From: Bacillota bacterium
GTDB taxonomy: Bacteria > Bacillota > SHA-98 > UBA4971
Assembly (NCBI GenBank): GCA_029551185.1
Contig: JAKPFY010000239.1
Location: 1-54,391, forward strand
Direction: 5' to 3'
DNA: 54,391 bases
In this document: in pieces, positions 31,923 through 46,395 of the stretch
How positions within the stretch are numbered: position 1 is the first letter of the stretch
Layout: each line of letters begins with the position of its first letter
The notes under the pieces: generated by a model
What the model saw: the letters and a program-made list of their open reading frames with translations, nothing else
Told to the model about the DNA's origin: nothing
Database searches by the model: none
Translations under genes and position numbers: made by a program

Positions 31923-31998
31923 GGGTCATTAGCTCAGGCGGTAGAGCACCGGACTTTTAATCCGGGTGTCGTGGGTTCGAGTCCCGCATGACCCACCA
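31923..31998 (+). tRNA. tRNA-Lys (anticodon UUU)
   Basis: A 76-nt gene with encoded CCA. The acceptor GGGTCAT (31923-31929) pairs with ATGACCC (31988-31994); the anticodon arm CCGGA-CTTTTAA-TCCGG shows anticodon TTT; the T arm is GTGGG-TTCGAGT-CCCGC. All arms pair properly and the invariant bases are present. It forms the left boundary of the island and shares a 24-nt identical block (31960-31983) with 48117-48140. Confidence 0.97.
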
Positions 31999-32070: not shown

Positions 32071-32100
32071 ACCTAATTCAAAGCTGATAGATCCGCCTCG

Positions 32101-32239
32101 ACAAGATCCGCCACAGCGCCGGTATTGAACCACTTCAGCGCTCTATTTTGACATTTCAAAGGCTCGCACATGTCCTTGCTTGGCGTTTAATCCTCCACAG
32201 CAGCCAAATGCGCAAAAACACCTCTCCGGTTGCGGAAGT
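32101..32239 (+). repeat. 140-bp direct repeat, copy 1
   Basis: Nearly identical to 33589-33730; copy 2 is three bases longer through two small insertions, with few substitutions. No protein in it is recognised. Its right end lies 20 bases from the truncated phosphotransferase fragment. Confidence 0.93.
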
Positions 32240-32477: not shown

Positions 32478-32502
32478 ACGGAAGAGTTATGGTCTCTTCC
32501 GT
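32478..32502 (-). terminator. Intrinsic terminator of hicAB
   Basis: ACGGAAGAG (32478-32486) and CTCTTCCGT (32494-32502) form a 9-bp stem that overlaps the hicB stop; on the minus strand it is followed by a T-rich run (CTCTTTTCC, then GGTTTTTC). Confidence 0.7.
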
Positions 32503-32897
32503 ATGCCTAATTGTTCTTTCAGTGCGGATTGAAGTACTTGTGAAAAGTTAATGTTTTTTTCGATTGCAAGCTTATTAAGCCATTGAGGGATTGAAAGAGT
32601 TTTCTTTACCGAATAGTTTTCAATAGCTTCTCTCATTGTAGGCATATACACCTCAATTAGTACAACAGCCTGGTTAGAGTCAAGGCGTATTTTGCTGATT
32701 GGGGTTGGTTCAGGAATTTCATCATTATCTTCTTCCATACTATAAAGGTGAAGGCTAAGTGCATCGTTAGCCATTTTGATTGCTTCTTGGTCTGAGTTTG
32801 CGCAAGAGAAACATCCAGGCAAGTCCGGGAAAGAAATAGAAATACCATCATCAGAATAATCGAATATTGCTGGATAAATATAACAATCTTTTTTCAC
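32487..32897 (-). CDS. hicB: HicB-family antitoxin
   Basis: An antitoxin of about 136 aa. The N-terminal half is the partially degraded RNase-H-like HicB fold (YPAIFDYSDDGISISFPDLPGCFSCANSDQEAIKMANDAL, a very recognisable pattern). The C-terminal half (SVKKTLSIPQWLNKLAIEKNINFSQVLQSALKEQLG) is a ribbon-helix-helix or HTH-type DNA-binding segment. A TTG at 32906 abuts the SD, so GTG at 32897, nine bases after GAGGAG, is the better start. HicB neutralises HicA and represses the hicAB promoter. The gene follows hicA by 28 bases and looks fully intact. Confidence 0.9.
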   Translation of the reverse strand: MKKDCYIYPAIFDYSDDGISISFPDLPGCFSCANSDQEAIKMANDALSLHLYSMEEDNDEIPEPTPISKIRLDSNQAVVLIEVYMPTMREAIENYSVKKTLSIPQWLNKLAIEKNINFSQVLQSALKEQLGIRKRP

Positions 32898-32925: not shown

Positions 32926-33131
32926 CTAGTTTTTATCTATAGGAGTAATATCCGCTTGCTTGAAAATGTTTTTGACAGTTTTGTAAGGGATGTCTTTTCT
33001 AGGATGAAGAATAGTCACTTTACCTTTTTTATAGGGTGCTTAAAATGATGATGGCTACCGGTAGCTCCGTAAAAATACCATCCGTCATCATTTAGTATTT
33101 TTATTAACTCCATTGACGAGTAAAGCCTCAT
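32926..33131 (-). CDS. hicA: HicA-family mRNA interferase toxin, frame interrupted at a -1 slippery site
   Basis: From the ATG at 33131 the zero frame reads MRLYSSMELIKILNDDGWYF, then GATGSHHHFKHPIKKVK and a stop after 38 codons. The double-stranded-RNA-binding fold of HicA with its catalytic histidine (GSHHHF) is clear. The rest of the family pattern (GKVTILHPRKDIPYKTVKNIF, then KQADI) continues in the -1 frame to a stop at 32926. The switch falls exactly on A-AAA-AAG (33030-33024), the heptamer used for programmed -1 frameshifting in E. coli dnaX. With a -1 shift the product is 68 aa, a normal HicA length. Alternatively one A was lost from a run of seven. A good promoter lies upstream and hicB is intact. 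Confidence 0.82.
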
Positions 33132-33153
33132 AGACATTATCCCCTTTATGTCT

Positions 33154-33182
33154 ATAATAATACGTAATAAAATACGTGTCAA
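33154..33182 (-). promoter_or_regulatory. hicAB promoter with inverted-repeat operator
   Basis: On the minus strand, perfect TTGACA (33182-33177), 17 bases, TATTAT (33159-33154). An inverted repeat ACGTA-N6-TACGT (33162-33177) fills the spacer and is a natural candidate for HicB autoregulation. The start site would lie about 16 bases before the hicA ATG. Confidence 0.75.
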
Positions 33183-33529: not shown

Positions 33530-33588
33530 GTAGGAAATGAGAGAAAAACAGCGTAATACTACGCCACTCAAATTCCACGGGAGATAGG

Positions 33589-33730
33589 ACAAGATCCGCC
33601 ACAGCGCCGGTATTGAACCACTTCAGCGCTCTATTTTGACATTTCAAAGGCTCGCGCACATGTCCTTGCTTGGCGTCTAATCCTCCACAGCAGCCAAATG
33701 CGCAACAAACACCTCTCCGGTTGCGGAAGT
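33589..33730 (+). repeat. 140-bp direct repeat, copy 2
   Basis: Second copy of 32101-32239, same orientation, 1.49 kb downstream. The two copies bracket the phosphotransferase remnant, hicAB and the transposase remnant. Confidence 0.93.
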
Positions 33731-33796: not shown

Positions 33797-34546
33797 CTAG
33801 TCCTTCTTAAGAATCAACAAGTCACCGTCTAACCCCTGATGAGCAACTTGAACATGCGCGAGCTCTTCAATAACGTTAGGTGGAACCCATGCTAACGTGA
33901 ATGGAAACAGGGCAGGGGATTGTAGTAAGTCATTGAGTAAAGATCTACCGTCCGGGTTTGCGTGTAGCAAGGCCTCGACAAGCCAGGCGATGAGCTCCGG
34001 GTTATCTATATGTCGGCTTATTCCAGGTTTATAGACCTGTGCCTTTGCTTCCTTCTCCAATACACCCCAGTTGACGAATGAGTACATAACACGTTGGGCA
34101 GCCCGAATCACCGTTTCTCGTTCACCGTATTTCTCTCGGACTCTGCGTTGAACTTGAGATGATGTCACAGAATCCTGCAAACGTAGGAGCCTTCCGATAT
34201 TGTCTGCAACAGCTTTCAGAAATGGATATGCTGCCATTGACATTCCCCAGTGAATGGGTACATGCTCTTCAATAGGCAGCAGTCGAATCATCTCAAGCCC
34301 TCTGGCACGGAGGGATTCAAGTTCCGGCACACCGTCAAACCATACTCTCATGAGTATGGTGATAGTCTTATCCCTGGCATTTCTCTTTGCAGTGCTTCCT
34401 ACAGCCAATTGATCGCTGAGGAATTCATCGAGCGCTGTGTAGACACCCTGCCGACTGTTCCCTGCTAATATCAAGTTAACAGTATATTCAAGCCATTCAA
34501 GGAGTATTTGTCTGTCAAATCCAATCTGTGTAAAACGGTTGGTCAC
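33797..34546 (-). CDS. brxA: BrxA-like protein, type 3 BREX
   Basis: The last gene of the BREX operon, 249 aa, mostly alpha-helical with no enzyme motif. I assign it as BrxA (DUF1819-like) mainly because type 3 BREX operons end pglZ-brxA and size and position agree; a central helical region (RVREKYGERETVIRAAQRVM followed by YSFVNWGVLE) suits the winged-helix DNA-binding fold of BrxA. GTG at 34546 follows AAGGAGGACACC and overlaps the pglZ stop by four bases, so translation is coupled. Sequence-only evidence is moderate; context evidence is strong. Confidence 0.75.
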   Translation of the reverse strand: MTNRFTQIGFDRQILLEWLEYTVNLILAGNSRQGVYTALDEFLSDQLAVGSTAKRNARDKTITILMRVWFDGVPELESLRARGLEMIRLLPIEEHVPIHWGMSMAAYPFLKAVADNIGRLLRLQDSVTSSQVQRRVREKYGERETVIRAAQRVMYSFVNWGVLEKEAKAQVYKPGISRHIDNPELIAWLVEALLHANPDGRSLLNDLLQSPALFPFTLAWVPPNVIEELAHVQVAHQGLDGDLLILKKD

Positions 34547-36549
34547 GGTGTCCTCCTTTGTATGTGGATAAGCGGCACAATTACTTCCTCAAGAGATATT
34601 CCTCCATGAGTCACAATCCTTGCGCCTTCCCCGACAAAAGCAGTGCGGTCGGGCGCAATCAGAGGCAGGAAATCATCAGGTAATCCTACAGAAGGCCATT
34701 CTATAGAGTCTGGGAAAGAGGCTTTTACCTTCTTGCGCAGGAGTTCGTCGGAGAAGATTCTCACGCGCTCGCCTCGTACTTCTGCTACAGCGCCTTCTTT
34801 AGGACTACCACAGCCATAAGCTTCTATGTTTCCGTGGTCGCTGGTGAGAGTAATGTCAAATCCGGAGTCCAGGAGAATGTTCAATAGGCGGGACAGATAT
34901 CCCTGTTTTGCCCAGTCACGCACCTGACTAAGCATGCCTGAGGCCCCAAGCTCCATTCCATGCATGATTTTGTCAACCTTGTTAATGACCAAACCCATTA
35001 CCTGAATTGATGGATTAGAAGCTGCATCGCATACTTCTTCTAGATCGCCATCGCCGAGACCTCTTAAGTATGCGATTTCTCTCTCTCTTAGCTTCTGATC
35101 CATCCAGAATTGTGTCCAGAGAGAGGCATCCTTGTCTGTCTTTGTGATGCTGTCGGGGAAGTAAAACGGTGGTTTTCCGGAAAAAAGCGCTTGTCTGGAT
35201 ACTGATGTGATTGTAGGTAACCAGGCAAAAACCGCGTCTTCCTGAAATCTGAGCATTGGTTGCTGGTCTTGCAGGACATCGCGAATAGCAAGCCACTGAT
35301 TTAGGGCTAAACCGTCTATGACAACAAGGGCAATTTTACCATTACCGGTATTGCCCTTCTGCCGCGCCAGAGCGCGTGGTACATGATGGAGCATGACAGG
35401 GGGTAGGGGAGGTTGATTGTGTAAGCCTATGTAACGATTCTCTATCCAGGTAAGGAACTCAGAGTCAAGCTGTCGGCTAAGGTCGCTAAACCGGTCCTGG
35501 TCCTCCGGTTTCAATATGTTTTGGAGTTCTAACTTCAAACGTGAAAGCTCAGCCCAGCGGTATGCAAAAGCAAGCCAATCTTGATGTCTCGAGCGAGAAG
35601 ACGGAAGTGATTCCGCAACTAACCTAGCGAGGCCGTCCAGTCTACGTAACAGATCCAGCTCGGGGTCGGTCTTTATCCCAACTGTGACCCATGTCCCTGA
35701 CAGGAGCTGAGACTCATGATGAGCTACAGGTTGTAGTAGGCCGTCAAGAAACAGGCTGTCTATATAGACCCGAACATCATCATGGTCAAACGGTAGAGAA
35801 GTCGGCCCGTTGAACTCAAGCTTGGTAGAGGTCTGGCCATTATGCGCCATGAACCCCTGTTCCATTGCGAGCCGGTTTAGAAACACCGGCCACCGTTCTT
35901 GTAGAAATCTAAAGAACGACTGTCTGTTGCTGACTATCTCCTCGAGCGGCCAGTCTAGGAATAAGCCCTGATTCCACAGGGAGTGAATGAAATAATCGTC
36001 GAGCACCTCCGGCACTTTAACGTTCTTGTAATGGCGACTCAGCAAAACCCGGAGAAGATCAGACGGCTGATGGATAAGTTCTGTCACAGTCCCGAACACG
36101 TGTCGAAGGGCAAAATCCTTAGTGGCGTTGTCTCCTAATACACCGGGAGCGTATTCCTGTTGAGCTTTATATAAAGTATCAAGATGGCTTTTGTCGAGTG
36201 AAGCAATGACAGGATAGCTCAAGTTCGGAAACAGCTTGCCCAGATCAAATGAGAGCTTCTGTCCTATCTGAAGCAGATCATAGGGGAGCGCACTCAGTTC
36301 ACGGGATTCGCAACGCACAACCAGTGCCTGGTGACATTCCTCGCGATCTTCGCATTGTGAACGGTACTTAGACTCATAGAGATATCGAAACGCAATAGGA
36401 TCATCAAACGACAGAATGTCAAACCCTTTGTCGCGTATCCCTTGGAGTAATTGCTCTTCTAAGAGGAGACCGTCAGGATCAGCTACGAGGACAAGTCGGG
36501 ATACCTGCGGCATGAATTTGCTTAGCAATTGGGCGCGCCAATCAGTCAT
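34543..36549 (-). CDS. pglZ: PglZ alkaline-phosphatase-superfamily protein, type 3 BREX
   Basis: PglZ is the signature protein of BREX, shared by all types. About 668 aa. The C-terminal half has the alkaline-phosphatase-like core: GKIALVVIDGLALNQWLAIRD (first metal-binding aspartate), WLPTITSVSRQALFSGKPP (nucleophile region) and LTSDHGNIEAYG (DHG metal ligands), ending in IVTHGGISLEEVIVPLI, also typical. The N-terminal half is a helical PglZ-specific region. The ATG at 36549 follows AGGTG and overlaps the end of the helicase gene by eight bases (ATGACTGA). It likely acts in a membrane-independent complex with BrxC and the methyltransferase; its chemical reaction is not settled. Confidence 0.92.
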   Translation of the reverse strand: MTDWRAQLLSKFMPQVSRLVLVADPDGLLLEEQLLQGIRDKGFDILSFDDPIAFRYLYESKYRSQCEDREECHQALVVRCESRELSALPYDLLQIGQKLSFDLGKLFPNLSYPVIASLDKSHLDTLYKAQQEYAPGVLGDNATKDFALRHVFGTVTELIHQPSDLLRVLLSRHYKNVKVPEVLDDYFIHSLWNQGLFLDWPLEEIVSNRQSFFRFLQERWPVFLNRLAMEQGFMAHNGQTSTKLEFNGPTSLPFDHDDVRVYIDSLFLDGLLQPVAHHESQLLSGTWVTVGIKTDPELDLLRRLDGLARLVAESLPSSRSRHQDWLAFAYRWAELSRLKLELQNILKPEDQDRFSDLSRQLDSEFLTWIENRYIGLHNQPPLPPVMLHHVPRALARQKGNTGNGKIALVVIDGLALNQWLAIRDVLQDQQPMLRFQEDAVFAWLPTITSVSRQALFSGKPPFYFPDSITKTDKDASLWTQFWMDQKLREREIAYLRGLGDGDLEEVCDAASNPSIQVMGLVINKVDKIMHGMELGASGMLSQVRDWAKQGYLSRLLNILLDSGFDITLTSDHGNIEAYGCGSPKEGAVAEVRGERVRIFSDELLRKKVKASFPDSIEWPSVGLPDDFLPLIAPDRTAFVGEGARIVTHGGISLEEVIVPLIHIQRRTP

Positions 36550-39343
36550 GAGAAGCACCTACTTCAATGCGGACTATTACAAGAGGTATCACATCAGGGC
36601 TGATTTGAGCTTTTTGCTCCATCATCTTTTCCCACTCTTGTTTCTCTTGTTCAAGCTGTCTCAGTCTGTAGTTTCTTACTGTAGGCAGCCCGATTCTTTC
36701 GATAGCTCGACGGCGTGCATTAAAAGAATACGCACCTTTTTCACGTTCTTTGCTAATGCGATCTTGGTGCACTCCCAAAAGTTCATCATAGGTAGTTCTT
36801 CCGTATGTTTTAACTGCTTCCATCAGACGTTGAAATACTAGATTAGAGTCTTGCTTGATGTGGCCTTTGACTTTGATGGATTCAGAAAGGAGTTCATCCC
36901 ATATCCGCCCGGCTGTCGGTATTAGAATTCTTCCATCATCATGCAGAAACAGGGGAATGATTCTCTTACGATTCCAGTCATCTGCCTGAACTGAGATTTC
37001 CCAGAGGGACCAGAATCCGCGTACACCTTGCGGAATATTCGGCAACTCTATGACGGGAATAGGCTGTCCTAGCGCAAAACGAGGAAGACGCATAACTAGG
37101 TTGCGAATGTTAGGGTTCTGCAATGTCAGATGTTGCGCTGTTGGGTTGATTTCAGCTTCCTTACGTGTGAAGACTGCATCTATGGTTTCGGAGCTATCAG
37201 GCCAACGAAGATTCCATCCATCAATACGCTTTTCTGCTTGACCTCCATAGGCTTGGACAAAACTTGTGGTCATACGCTCAACCCAATATGGGAAGGGATG
37301 GGAGATAAGCCTCTCGGCGTCGTCAGGCGTCAGATCTTCTGTTGAGCCCAATACTGATATGCTTTCCTTTGTTTGCCTTACTTGAGTTTCAATACGGATG
37401 ACTGCATTGGCAATGGATGTCTCCACGTCTTCCGGGTTCAGAATGGCGTCCACATACAAATCTTCAAAGATACCTGCCGCTTCCGCAGAATCAAGGACAT
37501 CACCTGTTTTGTCCACTCCGAATTCATTGAAAATCACAGTAAGTTTCTCTTCCAAAACTTCAAGAACGCGATGGTCCACTGAATCTTCTAAGACTAAATT
37601 GATGGCACGTACCACCTTGTCCTGCCCGATTCGATCCACACGTCCGATACGTTGCTCAAGACGCATAGGGTTCCACGGAATATCGTAGTTTATTACTACA
37701 TGACAGAACTGTAAGTTAAGGCCTTCTCCACCTGCATCAGTGGAAATGAGGATTCTGGCGCGGTCAGCGAATATCTGCTGAACCTGCTCTCGTTCCTGCA
37801 TATTCATTGAGCCGTTGAGGCAGACTGTATGAAACCCCCGGCTAGTAAGAAACTCATATAGCATTTCTTGAGTGGCCATAAACTCAGTAAAAATCAATAT
37901 CTTTAGGTTTGGGTCTCTCTCTTCCTGCTGCAGGCGGTATATCCAGTCCATAAGTGCTTCTGCCTTAACATCAGGTCCGGCCTCATCGCATTCTTTAGCA
38001 AACTCAAGTAACTGCCGTACCTCAGCATGTTCATTCTTGATCGCTTGAAGCTTATGCTTGGTGAGAATGTCCAGTTGCTCCTGGCCGTCAAGCTCAACCC
38101 AGTCTTCTTCAGGGAAACCGTCGAAGAGAGAGAGCTGTCCTTCGGGGCTTTCCAATGCTTCCAGTCGGCGCTCAAGGGTAACCCTTACGGCTCTGGTGCT
38201 TGAGGTAACCAATCTTTGCATAAGGAGCATGAGGAAGCCTATGTAGTTTCGTTTCTCGCGCATTGCTTGGTTATAACCTTCGCGAACATACTCTGTGACT
38301 GCATGGTATAGAATGCGCTGCATTCTGTGCCTCTCATCCCAGGCTATGGCTTCCAGTTGAGTTCTTCGTGGCTTGAAAAGAGGCCTCCCGTCTGCGCATA
38401 TAGCTTGCCTCTTTTCCGTGCGGATGATGTAGGGCTTGACGCGGTCTCTCGTAATGCTTTCGATGTCCGGGAAAGCGTCCGGATCGAGCAATGAAATCAG
38501 CCGATGGAAGGAATCGGTCTTACCTTGATGAGGTGTTGCAGAAAGAAGGAGCAAATATGGCGCAGCTTCAGCAAGAGCCAAGCCCAGCTTATGTCTTGCA
38601 ACTTGGTCAGTGCTTCCACCCAGACGATGGGCTTCATCCACAATAATTAGGTCCCAGCCTGCTGAGATGAGATCTTCAAATCTCTCTTTGTTGTATTCAG
38701 CTACCTGGTTGCGTGACCACCCCTTGCGTCCTTCAAGGGGTTTCACCGAGTCTATAGGGCAGACGATCTGAGGGAAGCGTTGCCATATGTTTTCGTCTTG
38801 GATTATTTGGCGATATGCAGAGAAATCGCCTGGGATTAGAAGCCTGAAGTCTTCGTTGAAGTGGGTGCGCATCTCCGCTACCCACTGGGTAACCAAGCCT
38901 CTCGGAGCAACTACGAGTGTACGCGCGACTTGGCCGCGAAGTTTTAGTTCCCGCATTATCAGCCCGGCTTCAATGGTCTTTCCTAAGCCTACTTCATCTG
39001 CAAGCAAGTAACGGACTCGATCATTAGCTACAGCACGTGATAATGCCTGGATCTGATGCGGAAGGGGAATGACTGATGATTCAATGGGAGCAAGGAGAAC
39101 ATCATGGGTGAGTGCATCAGCAACCCGGGCGGCCGCTGCAACATATGCGATGTGAGCAGGTGTTGCCATGTTTGTCTCATCCACAGGTTTGAGTTCATCT
39201 TGACGAACACGAACTACCTCGTTCTGATTTGGCAGCCAGACTCGGTAGATGATATCTCCCCAAAGATTTTGAGTCTCTATAATCTTACATACTTGTTGGT
39301 ATTTACTGCAGTAAACCCAAGTTCCAGTGTCAAGTCCCTTCAT
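36542..39343 (-). CDS. brxHII: BrxHII, SNF2/RapA-type helicase of type 3 BREX
   Basis: A 933-aa SF2 ATPase. Motif I is LLADEVGLGKTIEAGLIM, motif II IIVDEAHRLGG, motif III LLLSATPHQGKTD, and the C-terminal motor domain has ILIFTEFMATQEML and STDAGGEGLNLQFCHVVINYDIPWNPMRLEQRIGRVDRIGQ. This is the SNF2-like arrangement also found in RapA and in DrmD of DISARM. Its place between the methyltransferase and pglZ identifies it as BrxHII of BREX type 3. About 300 C-terminal residues form a helical extension without a recognised catalytic motif. Ten bases after pglXI, overlapping pglZ. Confidence 0.9.
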   Translation of the reverse strand: MKGLDTGTWVYCSKYQQVCKIIETQNLWGDIIYRVWLPNQNEVVRVRQDELKPVDETNMATPAHIAYVAAAARVADALTHDVLLAPIESSVIPLPHQIQALSRAVANDRVRYLLADEVGLGKTIEAGLIMRELKLRGQVARTLVVAPRGLVTQWVAEMRTHFNEDFRLLIPGDFSAYRQIIQDENIWQRFPQIVCPIDSVKPLEGRKGWSRNQVAEYNKERFEDLISAGWDLIIVDEAHRLGGSTDQVARHKLGLALAEAAPYLLLLSATPHQGKTDSFHRLISLLDPDAFPDIESITRDRVKPYIIRTEKRQAICADGRPLFKPRRTQLEAIAWDERHRMQRILYHAVTEYVREGYNQAMREKRNYIGFLMLLMQRLVTSSTRAVRVTLERRLEALESPEGQLSLFDGFPEEDWVELDGQEQLDILTKHKLQAIKNEHAEVRQLLEFAKECDEAGPDVKAEALMDWIYRLQQEERDPNLKILIFTEFMATQEMLYEFLTSRGFHTVCLNGSMNMQEREQVQQIFADRARILISTDAGGEGLNLQFCHVVINYDIPWNPMRLEQRIGRVDRIGQDKVVRAINLVLEDSVDHRVLEVLEEKLTVIFNEFGVDKTGDVLDSAEAAGIFEDLYVDAILNPEDVETSIANAVIRIETQVRQTKESISVLGSTEDLTPDDAERLISHPFPYWVERMTTSFVQAYGGQAEKRIDGWNLRWPDSSETIDAVFTRKEAEINPTAQHLTLQNPNIRNLVMRLPRFALGQPIPVIELPNIPQGVRGFWSLWEISVQADDWNRKRIIPLFLHDDGRILIPTAGRIWDELLSESIKVKGHIKQDSNLVFQRLMEAVKTYGRTTYDELLGVHQDRISKEREKGAYSFNARRRAIERIGLPTVRNYRLRQLEQEKQEWEKMMEQKAQISPDVIPLVIVRIEVGASHD

Positions 39344-39352
39344 TTGATATTA

Positions 39353-42160
39353 TCAGCCTTCTGTCCTGGTTAATGCTTGGTCATACCACATGAGTAACTT
39401 TGGATCTTCCTGAAGAACCGTGACAGGAATCTTCTTCGCGACATCAAGTATTGTCTGGTAGTCCCGCTCTATCCAGGCCTTCTTAAATCCGGCACGAACA
39501 GCCTCCAGCCTGAAGACTTTCAGGCGTTTCTGTGTTGAAGCTCGATACTCTTCAAATTCCTTCAGCAGTGCTTTTTCGCGAAGTTTCTCAAGGTCTCCTG
39601 CCTTATTAGGATCAGGTACGTACCAGCGGTCCTTCGCCTTAGCCTGCAAAGCCGGGTCGTCTTTAGATAAGTTCCGTAGGTCCTTGAAGTTACTGGAAAG
39701 GTAGCTATGGATCTGACTGGGAACTTCGCCGGTCCCGTCATAGCGCAAGAAATTCTGCTGCAGTAGTTCTAACAGTTCCAGTGGTTCTTCGTGCTTCTGC
39801 CACCCGACAATCTCCTTCATAAACTGTGGGTGAAGCTCTTGGAAGGTTTGAGGCTTAAAAGCAAGCTGTTGTTTAAGCCATTGAATGGCTGAAGCTTCAT
39901 CTAGGACGAATAGCTCCAGTTGCTGGATGTCTTTAACCCTCATACGTTTTTTATCGTACTCAGCAACCTGATCCGGCAAAAAGTACATCCCGTCGCGTTC
40001 CGGAAAACGTTGACCCAGACCTTGATAGAACTCTGCTGCAGATAGAGGTACTGTTACTCCACGTTGTACGTGGAATGCAACCATGCGGTCGTAGAGAAGG
40101 TAATTCTGTCTCTCAGCTATGACTTCAACCTTACCATCTTTAGTCACGAAAACAGGAAGCTGCTTGAGGTGAGTGCGGACAAAGTCCCATGCGCCGTCTT
40201 CCGTGCCTGCTTGAAGTTTGAAGCGTTCTTCCAAGCCACTGTTAGGCTTGTATGCAGAGATAATAAGATCCTGCTTGACGGCACTGCTGCTTGTAATCTG
40301 CTTAAACGTTCCTTGTTGTTTATCAAGAGTACGAACATCTGCAACGACAAAACCAACACGCTGTAAGGCTTCTTGTATCGCATTCCACACGCTGTTTTTA
40401 GAGTTGTGAAATTCCACAGTCATCCATCTGCCAGGTTTGAGGACTCTGTAGTATTCCTCAAAGCAGCGTGTCATTAAGTGCTGGTATTCTGCAAGTCCTT
40501 TCCCTTGAGCTTTGTTTTCAATCACTTCTGGTTCATTGTTCGTGAAGACCTTTAGCCACGATTCCCACAGGAAATTTAACTCTGAATACATTAGGTTACC
40601 TCCGAAGGGAGGATCAGTAAAGATGTAGTCTGAGTACTGGGCAGGCAAAAAAGCGTGTGAAGTGCTTTGCGTCCCAATAAAGAATCTTTCGCTTGCCTGA
40701 TACATGTTAAGCATGGCAATTAGGCGTTTCAATCTGTTATTGAACGCATACCTAAATGAAACCTCTGAGTGCTGTGAACTGATGTAAAGGGTGCCACTGA
40801 GATTTCTGTTGTTCTGAGAGAAATGGTGTGGTGCATAGCGATTGAGGCGCGATAACCCTATTAATCCCTGATCAAACAAGAAACGACAGAAACTCTTGAT
40901 TTCTATCTCTGGTATTGCTGCTGTCTCCTCGAATAGTGTACTTAATAGCCACAGGCTCCTCTTCGTATAGAAATGATGCACATGAGTCATGCCTATGTCG
41001 TCGTTGCGTCTTGACTCTTCGCCTTCGGGCATCCGATCTGTCGGAAACCAATACGGAATATCACCATCCTCAATCTTTTGAATGAGCGCAAGATCAAAAG
41101 CATCTGGTGCCTTTTCAAGCCGTTTCCTGCCTACACTATAATTGATGAGTACAGGAACCTGCTTCGCTTGCCTTACAGTCTGGTTAATTGCTTTGTCATA
41201 CTTAGTAACCCATGCGCGGTCCATATTGCGTTTCGTGAGGCTGGCATTGCAGTGCGGACAAGGAAACTCGCGGTGTACCTTGCCCGCCTCCTTGTCCACT
41301 GCCACATCCCAAAACACCACTTCCTCAGAACACTCGGGGCACACAAACACATCAGACCATACGGTATAATTGATCCTTCCCTTGGTCTTTCCGTCGGTGT
41401 GCAGAGTTTCATACATCCATCCGCATTCTTTCTCTACTTCTGAAAGGATTCGCTTGGCCTCTTTCTCAAATTCCTTTACATCCACAGGTGTATTGTAGTT
41501 GTATGCAATAAACGTTGCAGCAGGGGAAAGATCATTCAATATGGCTCGCCTTACACCTAGCCTAGAAAATAGCTGCCAGACAGTCTTTCCGTCTGAATCT
41601 GTTTCTTTCTGATAAATGGTACCATCTTGATCCACTCTATAACCTAGAGACTCAACTGTAGCACGGTCTCCACATAGCTGTGCTGCGACTCCTGTCATCC
41701 CGGTTCCGCAGAATCCATCGAAAACGATATCCCCGGGTTCGGTATAGTGTAATATGTATCGCATAATTGCCTTATGAGGCACCTTGGTATGATAGGAGTG
41801 AGCGTTGTATATGGGATCATTCTTGCCTTCACTCACATCTGCAGCAAACGGCTTCTTGTCGTAATGTTCGTTGGGATTATAAGGTTTCCCGTAATGCTCT
41901 ATGAAATCTTCGATAAACGGATTAGGACATGCGGTATAGTACGGCGGATCTGACAATGCAAGAATGTCTTCATCTAGACCTATTGGAAACCCTTCGATTT
42001 TTCTAAACTCAGGGTCCTTAAGCTTCTCAGCGAGCTTCTGCAGAAAGTACTCCCTTCGTGCCTCATCGCTTTCGAAGGTCATTCCCAGGCATTCAACCGG
42101 ACCACTGGTTTTCGCTACTCTATTCTCTTCAAGAAATGACATCTGTTTGGAAGCACACAA
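39353..42160 (-). CDS. pglXI: PglXI, DNA methyltransferase of type 3 BREX
   Basis: A 935-aa adenine-type methyltransferase. An N-terminal motif IV-like LALSDPPYYTACPNPF (about 68-83) precedes motif I IVFDGFCGTGMTGVAAQLCG (about 145-164), a circularly permuted order. A treble-clef zinc region with CPEC and CPHC lies around 270-310, and a second DPP motif (TDPPFGGNLMYSELNFLWESW) lies in the middle of the protein. In BREX the methyltransferase marks host DNA at a non-palindromic site as self. Start TTG at 42160, with AGGAGA eight bases upstream; 12 bases after brxC. Target sequence cannot be read from the gene. Confidence 0.9.
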   Translation of the reverse strand: MCASKQMSFLEENRVAKTSGPVECLGMTFESDEARREYFLQKLAEKLKDPEFRKIEGFPIGLDEDILALSDPPYYTACPNPFIEDFIEHYGKPYNPNEHYDKKPFAADVSEGKNDPIYNAHSYHTKVPHKAIMRYILHYTEPGDIVFDGFCGTGMTGVAAQLCGDRATVESLGYRVDQDGTIYQKETDSDGKTVWQLFSRLGVRRAILNDLSPAATFIAYNYNTPVDVKEFEKEAKRILSEVEKECGWMYETLHTDGKTKGRINYTVWSDVFVCPECSEEVVFWDVAVDKEAGKVHREFPCPHCNASLTKRNMDRAWVTKYDKAINQTVRQAKQVPVLINYSVGRKRLEKAPDAFDLALIQKIEDGDIPYWFPTDRMPEGEESRRNDDIGMTHVHHFYTKRSLWLLSTLFEETAAIPEIEIKSFCRFLFDQGLIGLSRLNRYAPHHFSQNNRNLSGTLYISSQHSEVSFRYAFNNRLKRLIAMLNMYQASERFFIGTQSTSHAFLPAQYSDYIFTDPPFGGNLMYSELNFLWESWLKVFTNNEPEVIENKAQGKGLAEYQHLMTRCFEEYYRVLKPGRWMTVEFHNSKNSVWNAIQEALQRVGFVVADVRTLDKQQGTFKQITSSSAVKQDLIISAYKPNSGLEERFKLQAGTEDGAWDFVRTHLKQLPVFVTKDGKVEVIAERQNYLLYDRMVAFHVQRGVTVPLSAAEFYQGLGQRFPERDGMYFLPDQVAEYDKKRMRVKDIQQLELFVLDEASAIQWLKQQLAFKPQTFQELHPQFMKEIVGWQKHEEPLELLELLQQNFLRYDGTGEVPSQIHSYLSSNFKDLRNLSKDDPALQAKAKDRWYVPDPNKAGDLEKLREKALLKEFEEYRASTQKRLKVFRLEAVRAGFKKAWIERDYQTILDVAKKIPVTVLQEDPKLLMWYDQALTRTEG

Positions 42161-42172
42161 TACACATCTCTC

Positions 42173-45100
42173 CTATTCCAGCATGATACGAATTTTGCCG
42201 GCTTCTCTACCTTTTATTAACCCGGTTAGATATTCATCAAAGCGTTTCCTTAGCTCATTAGGCGTGGAAGGGGTACCGCCTACAGATAATGCATTCCACA
42301 GATCTTCGGTCTTGATGGTGACCTTAACTAAGCCGGAGAATACCTCTTGTAGCGCATTGACGAAATTCTGTCCAACCTCATCAGGGAGTCTTCGGTCTTT
42401 GAGGAAGTCGTTTATTAGGACTCGGTCATCACGTTTGAGTAGTTCGAGGTTTTCATGAATAGTAGGATCTTCGAGATTTTCCAGCAAGATTTTGGTCCAG
42501 GAGGTTACGAGGGAATCCAATTCATTTTCTAGATGGTCCAGTAGCATATCTGCACTGGCCTTCGACGATTCTGCGCCAGGCTTGTACTCACAATGCGGGC
42601 ATTTAGGCGATACATCTAGATCGGATTTGGTAAGGGCAAAGCAGGTTCTTAGCTCTCCAAGTCGGTTCTGGAAATCAATGAGCTGTTGATGAGGCATTAT
42701 GTTGACAGTAGACAGTTTTTGTAAGATATTAAGCCGTTCATCTTGCACTAGAGCACTCTTACGTTTATCGTCACTAATGCCGAGCCTTGCCCGCTCATGA
42801 AGTCTCAGGTAAACATCAATATATGACTGCTTCAGATCACTCAGTTGACGAAAGACCCTACGATGAAAATCAGTCTTCTGTGTTTTGCTTCTGTCAGAGA
42901 GCTCACTGACTATCTTATTCCTAACTTCCTTCATATTCACTATCCAATTATGGTCTGCGGGCAGTACTGCTTCTGCAGTAGAAAGATAGGATGCAGTAGG
43001 TTCCAACTCTGTAAGCATGTCATGTAATGCTTCGATATCTTTAAGACTCTGTAAGCCGACGTGATGGCTCTTTACATCATCTACATCGTAGCGGAAGTTC
43101 TTGAACTTGCCAGGAGTTGAATACACCTGTAAAGACTCAAGAAAATCTTTTAAGCTCTCCAGCTCTGAACGCAAGATTGCGGTTTCTTCTTCGCCCAGCA
43201 AGTTACGGCCCCAGAACATCATGCCACTCTGTATGTATTGTTGTGCACGAATCAGTCGCTCGATGGTTTGAGCAATCGTTTTCAAAAGCTCTTTTACAGG
43301 TTCGTCTTTGCCCTGTGTAATTAGTTGTGCCATGCCCGGAGTCAAACCTAATAATTCAAAGAGTGCTTTCATGGCAGGGATGTTCCAGTCTTTAGGCCGT
43401 TCCAGATGCTTAAATTCAACCAGATGATCGATGGGAGTCGCAGCCAAAGCGGGCAAGTCAATTGCATCAAACTTTCTCCCGGGAATAGCCAGGACCACGT
43501 GGCCTGAGTAGACTAACGCAGCAAGGATTACTACTACCCATTCAGGTTCCAGCCTGAAAGTTGTTGGGGCTAGGTATTCAACACCAACAACATCCTCAAT
43601 CAACTCAGAACGGTTGACAACTTTGCCTTGTCCCTTATCGTTCAGAATGTTTAAGATGTACTTGGCGTATCTGGACTTAGTCGGATCAAGTCGATCTCCG
43701 TCAAGCAGTTCAAGCGCATCAAGGACTGCTGTAGCTTGCTTTGTTTGGGATTGTCCTGCGATTGTGCGAAGTGCGTCCTGTGCAGCCAGAGAACGATTCT
43801 TACCTGTTATCTGTACTGAGAAGAACGGGTGCTCAGGTGCTTGATCTTGAAAGTAGGTTGCCAGACATCCTGAGCTGACTGCGTTGACAATGTCACGGAC
43901 ATTGATATTTTCACTTTCGCTTGGGGTGATCTTGCCTTTCATCCAGTCAATCAGGTTCTTTGTTTTCCCCTGATAAGTAACTTCGAAGCCTGTGGTTATG
44001 TGTTCTTGTAACCATTTGACAAGTTGGCGTAGGAATTCCTCGGCTTTAGACTCATAGACTGCTTTTGCGCGTCCTGAGGAAGTAGATGAAAGATCTTGAG
44101 CAGCAGCGTAGTTCTGTAGAATTTTGTCAAAGTCAGCGTCAGTGCTTCGGAGATGGAAGAACACCTCATCAGCTTTTTTCTCATCCTTATAGTATGGTGG
44201 TTCGTTAGGTTGAATGAAGTAAATGTAAAAGTCTCGGGGTGGTACAGCAGTCGAGCGTTCATTTGGGGCGCCAAAGAATAGATAGCCTGTCCGTGCTGCT
44301 TTGCGCTCACGCCACTCTAACTCGTGCTCCCAGATATTATAACCGGTGACATAGGTCTTATCTGTACACTCCATGACACGCTTGAGCGCTTCATAGTAAT
44401 AAAAGTCCAGTTGTGCCTTATCGAGACTTTCAGCACGATCTTCTATGATTGCATCGTAGTCTTCAGTTTTCTTTAGATCCAGATAATATTGCCTGTTATC
44501 CGGATTGGAAGATATGAACTGTCCACTCACAGTCTTATGAATCTCCCGCAAGACAGTCTCTACCTGACCGAGAAGGTCAGTAGCGGGTTCGCCGCCTAGA
44601 TCCTCAATGCCCGGTTGATAGAGACAGAGACTGTCTCTTAGCTCCTCAGGTGTTGCTCCGAGGTTTGAGTAGATATCTCCGGTAGTGAGACGGTGCACTG
44701 ACAAGCCGTGAATTAGCCGAAGAGCCATAGGTTTATACATGGGACGGGGGAAAGCGTGCTCGATACGGGATTCAAGAACTTGACTGCAGTCGATGACTGC
44801 TCGAATATCAGGCTGAGTCCTGAAAACGGCGTTGTCTCTGAGAAATGGCCAATAACTATCGTAAGCAATGAGGCCGGGATAATCCTTTGGGACTTCCTCA
44901 TCCACCAGTTTTCTCATGGAAAGTGAAAGAGTCTTAAGCACTTCTCGCTTTTCAGCAACTGTGATTCTCTCGAACGTATCAATGTAATCCGGGTGCACAG
45001 GGAAAAGCCGGACATACTCATCCATTCGCTCATTCATGTTCCCGTAGAACTTGGCAAAGGGCATTAGGTACTCTTTGATTCGAGCTTGTTGTTCATTCGT

Positions 45101-45886
45101 TTTCTTCAAGAGACGTTCGCTGACGACATATTTCACATCTTGCCTAACGATGAGTACTTGCTCAAAGCGATCTTTCACTCTACGAATCATTTCTGCCACG
45201 AATGAGAATCTAGGGCTATCAAAGATTGCTTCCTGTATACCTGCGATAAAGCGGAATCGTAGGTCTTTGCAAACTTCACCAATTTGCCGTAAGAAGTTAA
45301 GGTCAAGGATGATTTGTTTGTCATCTCGCGAACGGAGATATTCAAGTAATTCGTCGATCACCAGTAACAACCCATGATCAGGGTACTTGTGGTGAAACTC
45401 TGTCATCATCTCCTCAAATACCGGCTTGTCATCGGGGACTTCATCGGATCTTGGGAAAAGAAAGTCCACACCCAACTTTTGAAGATTATCTTCAAGTGTG
45501 AGGAAGACGATATCTCGTAGAGACATGGTTGTCGCACCTATTTCAGCGCGAATCACCTTGAACTTGCCGGCAATCTTAGTTGAGGCCTTCATGACTGCGT
45601 CATTGTTAAGCTTGGATATCAGCTCGGGATATTCAGCAATTGCAGAGATAACTGACATCAAATGGGACTTACCTGTTCCATAGTTGCCCACTATCAGTAG
45701 CCCTTTGCTATCCATAGGCTCACTGAATTGGAGATTTGGAATTACAATGTCTGTCAGTTTCTCTGCCATTTCGTTGGAGATAACGTACGTTCGGACTAAT
45801 TGCTCGGCAATTGTTAGTTTGTCCGCATGCCGAAGCTGAATCACTGTCTCAATCGGGTCAAACTGGACAAGGTCACCGTACTTCAT
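42173..45886 (-). CDS. brxC: BrxC/PglY ATPase, type 3 BREX
   Basis: A 1237-aa AAA-like ATPase. Walker [21 protein letters not shown] (about residue 63-82), Walker [20 protein letters not shown] (about 170-188), then a long helical body and a zinc-finger-like pair (CPHCE, with an upstream KCP) near residue 1130. Size and Walker context match BrxC/PglY, the large motor-like component present in all BREX types. The ATG at 45886 overlaps the brxF stop by four bases, so the two ATPases are translated together. Confidence 0.9.
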
Positions 45887-46395
45887 GTCCGATACTCCTT
45901 TACAGCGTTGTCGAGACCTTGGGTAGTCGCTGTCAAATCTATTATTAAGAAGTCTTGTATCCGGTACCTGCGGTACTCAGGATGCCTAGACTCTGCGTAC
46001 GTCAAGTAACCGTTCTCCACTAAACCATTCCAGGCAGCAACGACAGTATGATTTCGAGAGAGCTTTGTGAGGAGTTGTAATGGGTCTTGCTTAAGTGTTA
46101 CGTCGAATAGAATTTCTAAGTTATCCAGTAGGATTATCTCGTTTGCTGTGTGGTTTGTAAGTTCGTCCAAAAGCCTGAAGACGCACAGAATTCTTTGCCT
46201 TTCTGTCAGATCAAGCATTCGCTTGGAAAGCTCCAGATTAACATTAATCAGGGGAGTGCCTGTGCGTGCTTCTATCTCTTGTAATACCGTGGTCTTACCT
46301 GAGCCTTCAGGCCCTACGATAAGTACCAGTCGGTAGTGAAGCCCTGACGCTTGTTTGAGCTTTTGAAATACCTCGCCAGTGGGACTTCTTGACAT
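45883..46395 (-). CDS. brxF: BrxF, small P-loop ATPase of type 3 BREX
   Basis: A 170-aa P-loop protein: Walker [20 protein letters not shown] and Walker [15 protein letters not shown]. BrxF is found in type 3 BREX and its presence as first gene decides the type. The ATG at 46395 has GGAGGAG seven to nine bases upstream. It is the promoter-proximal gene; I could not find a strong promoter in the 780-base gap upstream. Confidence 0.88.

Follow-up and report, generated by a model that had tools for sequence, protein, structure and literature searches.

Orphan antitoxins left behind by decayed toxin-antitoxin pairs are known from a survey of Klebsiella (PMC7192599) and from a review of the field (PMC7354431), which also cites the loss of the Shigella YacB toxin through a frameshift. 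The locus described here lies in a window of 54,391 nucleotides (positions 1 to 54,391 of contig JAKPFY010000239.1, from a Bacillota bacterium). It resembles these cases in that its antitoxin gene is intact while the toxin gene is broken in place; it differs in that inactivation recurs independently dozens of times within one hicB family. As in a HicAB type II module, hicA precedes hicB behind a promoter with an inverted repeat, and the HicA_toxin (PF07927) and HicB_lk_antitox (PF15919) domains are both recognizable, but hicA encodes no full toxin in one frame. The site of the break also recalls Escherichia coli dnaX, since A-AAA-AAG occurs there in the -1 phase; unlike dnaX, hicA has neither a Shine-Dalgarno-like nor a stem-loop stimulator, and neither the site nor the -1 frame is conserved in relatives. 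This last point matters because a study with GeneTack took conserved sites as marking programmed frameshifts and nonconserved sites as marking pseudogenes (PMC3711429).

Direct reading of the minus strand places the hicA ATG at 33131, from which 38 codons, ending in HPIKKVK, lead to a TGA at 33017-33015; initiation at an in-frame ATG at 33137 would give 40 codons. The -1 frame entered at 33024 reads GKVTILHPRKDIPYKTVKNIFKQADITPIDKN and ends at a TAG at 32928-32926. Joined, the two halves score 66.4 bits against PF07927, compared with the lower separate scores in Table 1. Thus hicA does not run in the single open frame of a HicAB toxin, being interrupted at 33024-33030, and the break is real in the assembly. 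Reading of the sequence and the domain matches bear out the initial annotation on these points: the zero frame stops after 38 codons, the HicA fold continues in the -1 frame, and the heptamer has the right phase for a -1 shift.

Table 1. Features of the hicAB locus and its surroundings (positions are those of the window)
Feature	Position	Strand	Remarks
tRNA-Lys(UUU) gene	31923-31998	+	
Direct repeat, ~140 bases	32100-32239 and 33588-33730		97% identical; flanks the hicAB segment
Intrinsic terminator-like hairpin at hicB end	32478..32502	-	
hicB antitoxin, unbroken	32487..32897	-	136 codons, GTG start; HicB_lk_antitox PF15919 match
hicA 3' part, -1 frame	32926..33024	-	PF07927, 22.5 bits alone
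A-AAA-AAG at frame junction	33024..33030	-	Codons ATA AAA AAG, dnaX-type phase; remnant of conserved Lys-Lys codons
hicA 5' part, zero frame	33015..33131	-	38 codons + TGA; PF07927, 35.9 bits
Sigma-70-like promoter of hicAB operon, TTGACA-17-TATTAT	33154..33182	-	11/12 consensus matches
Inverted repeat ACGTA/TACGT between promoter hexamers	33162..33177		Read from sequence; pattern in relatives
BREX gene set brxF, brxC, pglXI, brxHI/brxHII, pglZ, brxA	33797-46395	-	All frames open

The hicA remnant carries a single frame lesion, and conservation is otherwise good on either side of it. One departure is a Leu at the conserved position before HP, a residue found there in none of 69 family rows. 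In comparison with locus L035, the hicA stretch before the break gave a dN/dS of 0.09 and the stretch beyond it 0.26, with 0.07 for hicB; these values, which come from few codons with saturated dS, are compatible with a recent break and too imprecise to prove relaxation. The remaining parts of the operon are intact, as the initial annotation had stated for the promoter, the operator-like repeat, the terminator, and hicB itself. The window hicB is ~90% identical to the hicB genes of L033-L035, and its dN/dS values (0.041 to 0.069 in pairs with the window) do not separate out the time since toxin loss. The promoter arrangement upstream of hicAB is repeated in relatives, some of which lack hicA, and the ACGTA/TACGT pattern is present both where hicA is intact and where it has been deleted. 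By analogy with the known autorepression of HicB (PMC11594946), the inverted repeat is likely the HicB operator.

The hicAB genes are absent from all six same-genus genomes searched. Homology to these genomes ends just past the tRNA-Lys gene (~32003), and the right flank matches other contigs from ~33784, which marks the hicAB segment as accessory. The accessory region may have inserted at the tRNA-Lys(UUU) gene, and the direct repeat that flanks hicAB may mark how the segment arrived; a partial third copy of this repeat is present at G000:C308:6762-6848. A complete-looking BREX set lies immediately upstream of hicAB in the same orientation; its gene content would make it a type 3 cluster.

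To assess how often hicA is lost, loci were collected through hicB, which kept the sampling free of bias from the state of hicA. The sample was drawn from genome contigs, 398 genomes of the phylum, and viral contigs, and the DNA upstream of every hicB was aligned in a frameshift-aware manner to score hicA; the 122 loci counted have a full-length hicB, and near-identical prophage copies were left out. While hicA was intact at 78 loci, it was not at the other 44 (36%), which comprised 15 frameshifts, 5 stops, 11 truncations, 1 internal deletion, and 12 cases in which the gene was absent. Frameshifts and stops are the firm classes; among distant hicB genes (<50% identity), the absent class may hide other arrangements or toxins unrecognized by the HicA references. 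Two alignment results are doubtful, a five-base step within a gapped stretch in L160 and the N-terminal hicB call in L046, and the conclusions are unchanged by them. Where hicB is at least 60% identical to that of the window, both genes are intact at 16 loci and a broken hicA accompanies an intact hicB at 14.

The losses are strongly one-sided. Forty-three loci combine a broken hicA with an intact hicB, whereas the reverse occurs once at most, resting on the doubtful call in L046; in a hicA-anchored set of 30 loci, including the window, every unbroken hicA is accompanied by a recognizable hicB, which is partial only in L027. Fifteen frameshifts fall in hicA (~190 nt) versus two in hicB (~408 nt; binomial P of ~2e-6), and broken hicA genes also occur in single-contig genomes, such as those of L107 (G348) and L123 (G133). 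When 128 HicB sequences were placed on a maximum-likelihood tree, the state of hicA changed 39 times, with at least 33 of these changes forced by well-supported branches; shuffling the broken label gave a mean of 38.7 changes, so the broken genes show no clustering beyond chance. The inactivations thus lie at the tips of the tree and are frequent, independent, and recent. Their positions within hicA vary: frameshifts fall at codons 5 (L036), 18 (L101), 34 (window), 34 to 36 (L038), 41 (L130), 43 (L138), 45 (L051), and 56 (L033), several of the family's frameshifts being outside homopolymers. Two separate lineages, L040 and L059, have a stop at the same codon 29 (GDHY*FK and GDHH*FK), a position that is often Gln in relatives. 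In L037, a large internal deletion leaves the first hicA codons (MKSYSSYEL) between an intact promoter with its inverted repeat and hicB.

A further form of loss is seen in viral contigs that are related to prophages of Clostridioides difficile. Four of these loci (L078, L085, L089, and L092) have no hicA, and hicB directly follows the promoter and a ribosome-binding site. The TAAGGAG or TAAGGGG preceding hicB in these contigs resembles both ribosome-binding sites, that of hicA and that of hicB, of relatives in which hicA is retained, and this likeness makes deletion between the two ribosome-binding sites a plausible route by which hicA would have been excised. Between orphan copies, hicB dN/dS is mostly 0.03 to 0.08 (0.11 and 0.25 for two pairs), similar to comparisons with paired copies.

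The initial annotation had weighed a one-base loss against programmed or transcriptional slippage at A-AAA-AAG, in which -1 shifting would yield a little regulated full-length HicA and the 38-codon form would be the major product. Several points favor slippage: the heptamer is correct, its phase at the break is exactly that of a -1 shift, and the -1 frame goes on to encode the rest of the HicA domain. In E. coli, few heptamers shift as readily as A_AAA_AAG if stimulators accompany it (PMC4066793), and good conservation of the remnant on both sides of the break would equally be expected of a frameshifted gene that works. The heptamer alone is uninformative, however, since HicA often has a conserved Lys-Lys pair at this site (HPxKKGKVT) that is mostly encoded by AAA AAA or AAA AAG after any preceding base, so that a run of about six A's is expected. 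It has the look that ordinary lysine codons would take on with one base missing, and we read it as a by-product of the two conserved lysine codons. When orthologues were compared, as had been suggested, neither the heptamer nor the -1 frame proved to be conserved. The HicA frame is continuous at the Lys-Lys site in the five closest relatives (ATT AAA AAA in L033, ACT AAA AAA in L034, ATC AAA AAA in L035, ACG AAA AAA in L049, and TCG AAA AAG in L036), with no -1 junction there. L054 and L114 both have an in-phase A-AAA-AAA exactly here and yet keep an unbroken frame; the A-AAA-AAG of L101 was not counted, as it follows an earlier frameshift and its phase is not that of the coding frame. A -1 junction with the heptamer, as in the window, was found in none of the relatives compared, and the frameshifts of the family are scattered along hicA, which by the GeneTack distinction is a mark of pseudogenes. 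Stimulators are lacking as well: RNA downstream of the heptamer shows no structure beyond that of shuffled sequence (z of -0.37, 0.11, and 0.68), and just 5' of it the Shine-Dalgarno consensus is matched nowhere over 4 bases or more. E. coli heptamers lacking stimulators stayed within about tenfold of a background of 0.055%, and the tRNA prone to shift is the UUU tRNA-Lys (PMC4066793); the genome of the window also has tRNA-Lys(CUU), which should lower slippage on AAG. For transcriptional slippage, A6 is short compared with the runs of about A9 to which it is usually tied (PMC1088944). With the site unconserved, stimulators lacking, and the lesions of relatives scattered, we rejected programmed ribosomal frameshifting, and regulated dosing of the toxin by either form of slippage is improbable, since close orthologues are in frame here and the broken ones carry their lesions mostly elsewhere. 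It is just as doubtful that low-level -1 slippage supplies a trace of full-length HicA, which would turn the broken gene into an attenuated, translationally dosed toxin checked by HicB; no report of a frameshift-dosed HicA was found in our literature search.

An error of sequencing or assembly in the A-run, which would leave the real hicA unbroken and HicAB functional, also has little to recommend it, although we consider it marginally more probable than slippage. A one-base homopolymer difference is open to such doubt in a draft assembly that comprises 318 contigs and is 81% complete, but the long neighboring genes are open, the six BREX genes that span 12.6 kb among them, and the window also has the Leu at a conserved hicA position. 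Random error would moreover give the opposite contrast between hicA and the longer hicB, in which frameshifts are few; the family-wide pattern is accordingly biological, and general sequencing error was rejected as its cause, a rejection that does not extend to the single base of the window, which may still be an error. Reversible slippage in the A-run that switches hicA on and off within a population would explain why the broken state is scattered over the tips of the tree and why L038, a separate lineage, has also lost one base from an A-run at nearly the same codons. This phase variation is the least probable of the alternatives: the run has only six A's, deletions and stops account for many losses and could not switch back, and the family's other frameshifts lie at other positions. 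Phase variation was rejected because most of these other frameshifts are outside this A-run.

A recent inactivation of hicA by loss of one base, in a horizontally acquired locus beside a type 3 BREX cluster and with an orphan HicB remaining, is very probably the correct reading. This possibility, also raised in the initial annotation, is well supported by relatives that are in frame at the site and by lesions scattered through the family; the toxin gene is broken in place and the antitoxin gene is open, as in other decayed toxin-antitoxin pairs. We propose that a HicAB type II operon was acquired horizontally between the tRNA-Lys gene and the BREX cluster and that one base was then lost at the A-run encoding the conserved Lys-Lys pair, recently inactivating the toxin. 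The self-repressed promoter shared with hicA would probably still drive hicB, the toxin would not be made in any useful amount, and the cell would now carry an orphan antitoxin. The break in the window would then be one among dozens of independent, recent inactivations of hicA in the hicB family. Such a pattern is expected if loss of the toxin is tolerated or favored and if selection acts against loss of the antitoxin for as long as the toxin is active. HicB may have been kept because the inactivation is recent, because the protein regulates its own expression, or because it protects against incoming HicA.

The frameshift in the window is itself ordinary decay, and the family-wide pattern is the more useful result. 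What stands out is how often hicA is lost within one hicB family, and no comparable count of recurrent toxin loss for hicB was found in the papers searched. An intact hicA is missing from about one-third of the sampled hicB loci and from almost half of the loci nearest to the window, through independent, recent events, a pattern that illustrates that losing the toxin is cheap and losing the antitoxin is not. A hicB gene is therefore an unreliable sign that HicAB works, and these loci supply orphan HicB proteins that could readily be tested for anti-addiction or regulatory roles.
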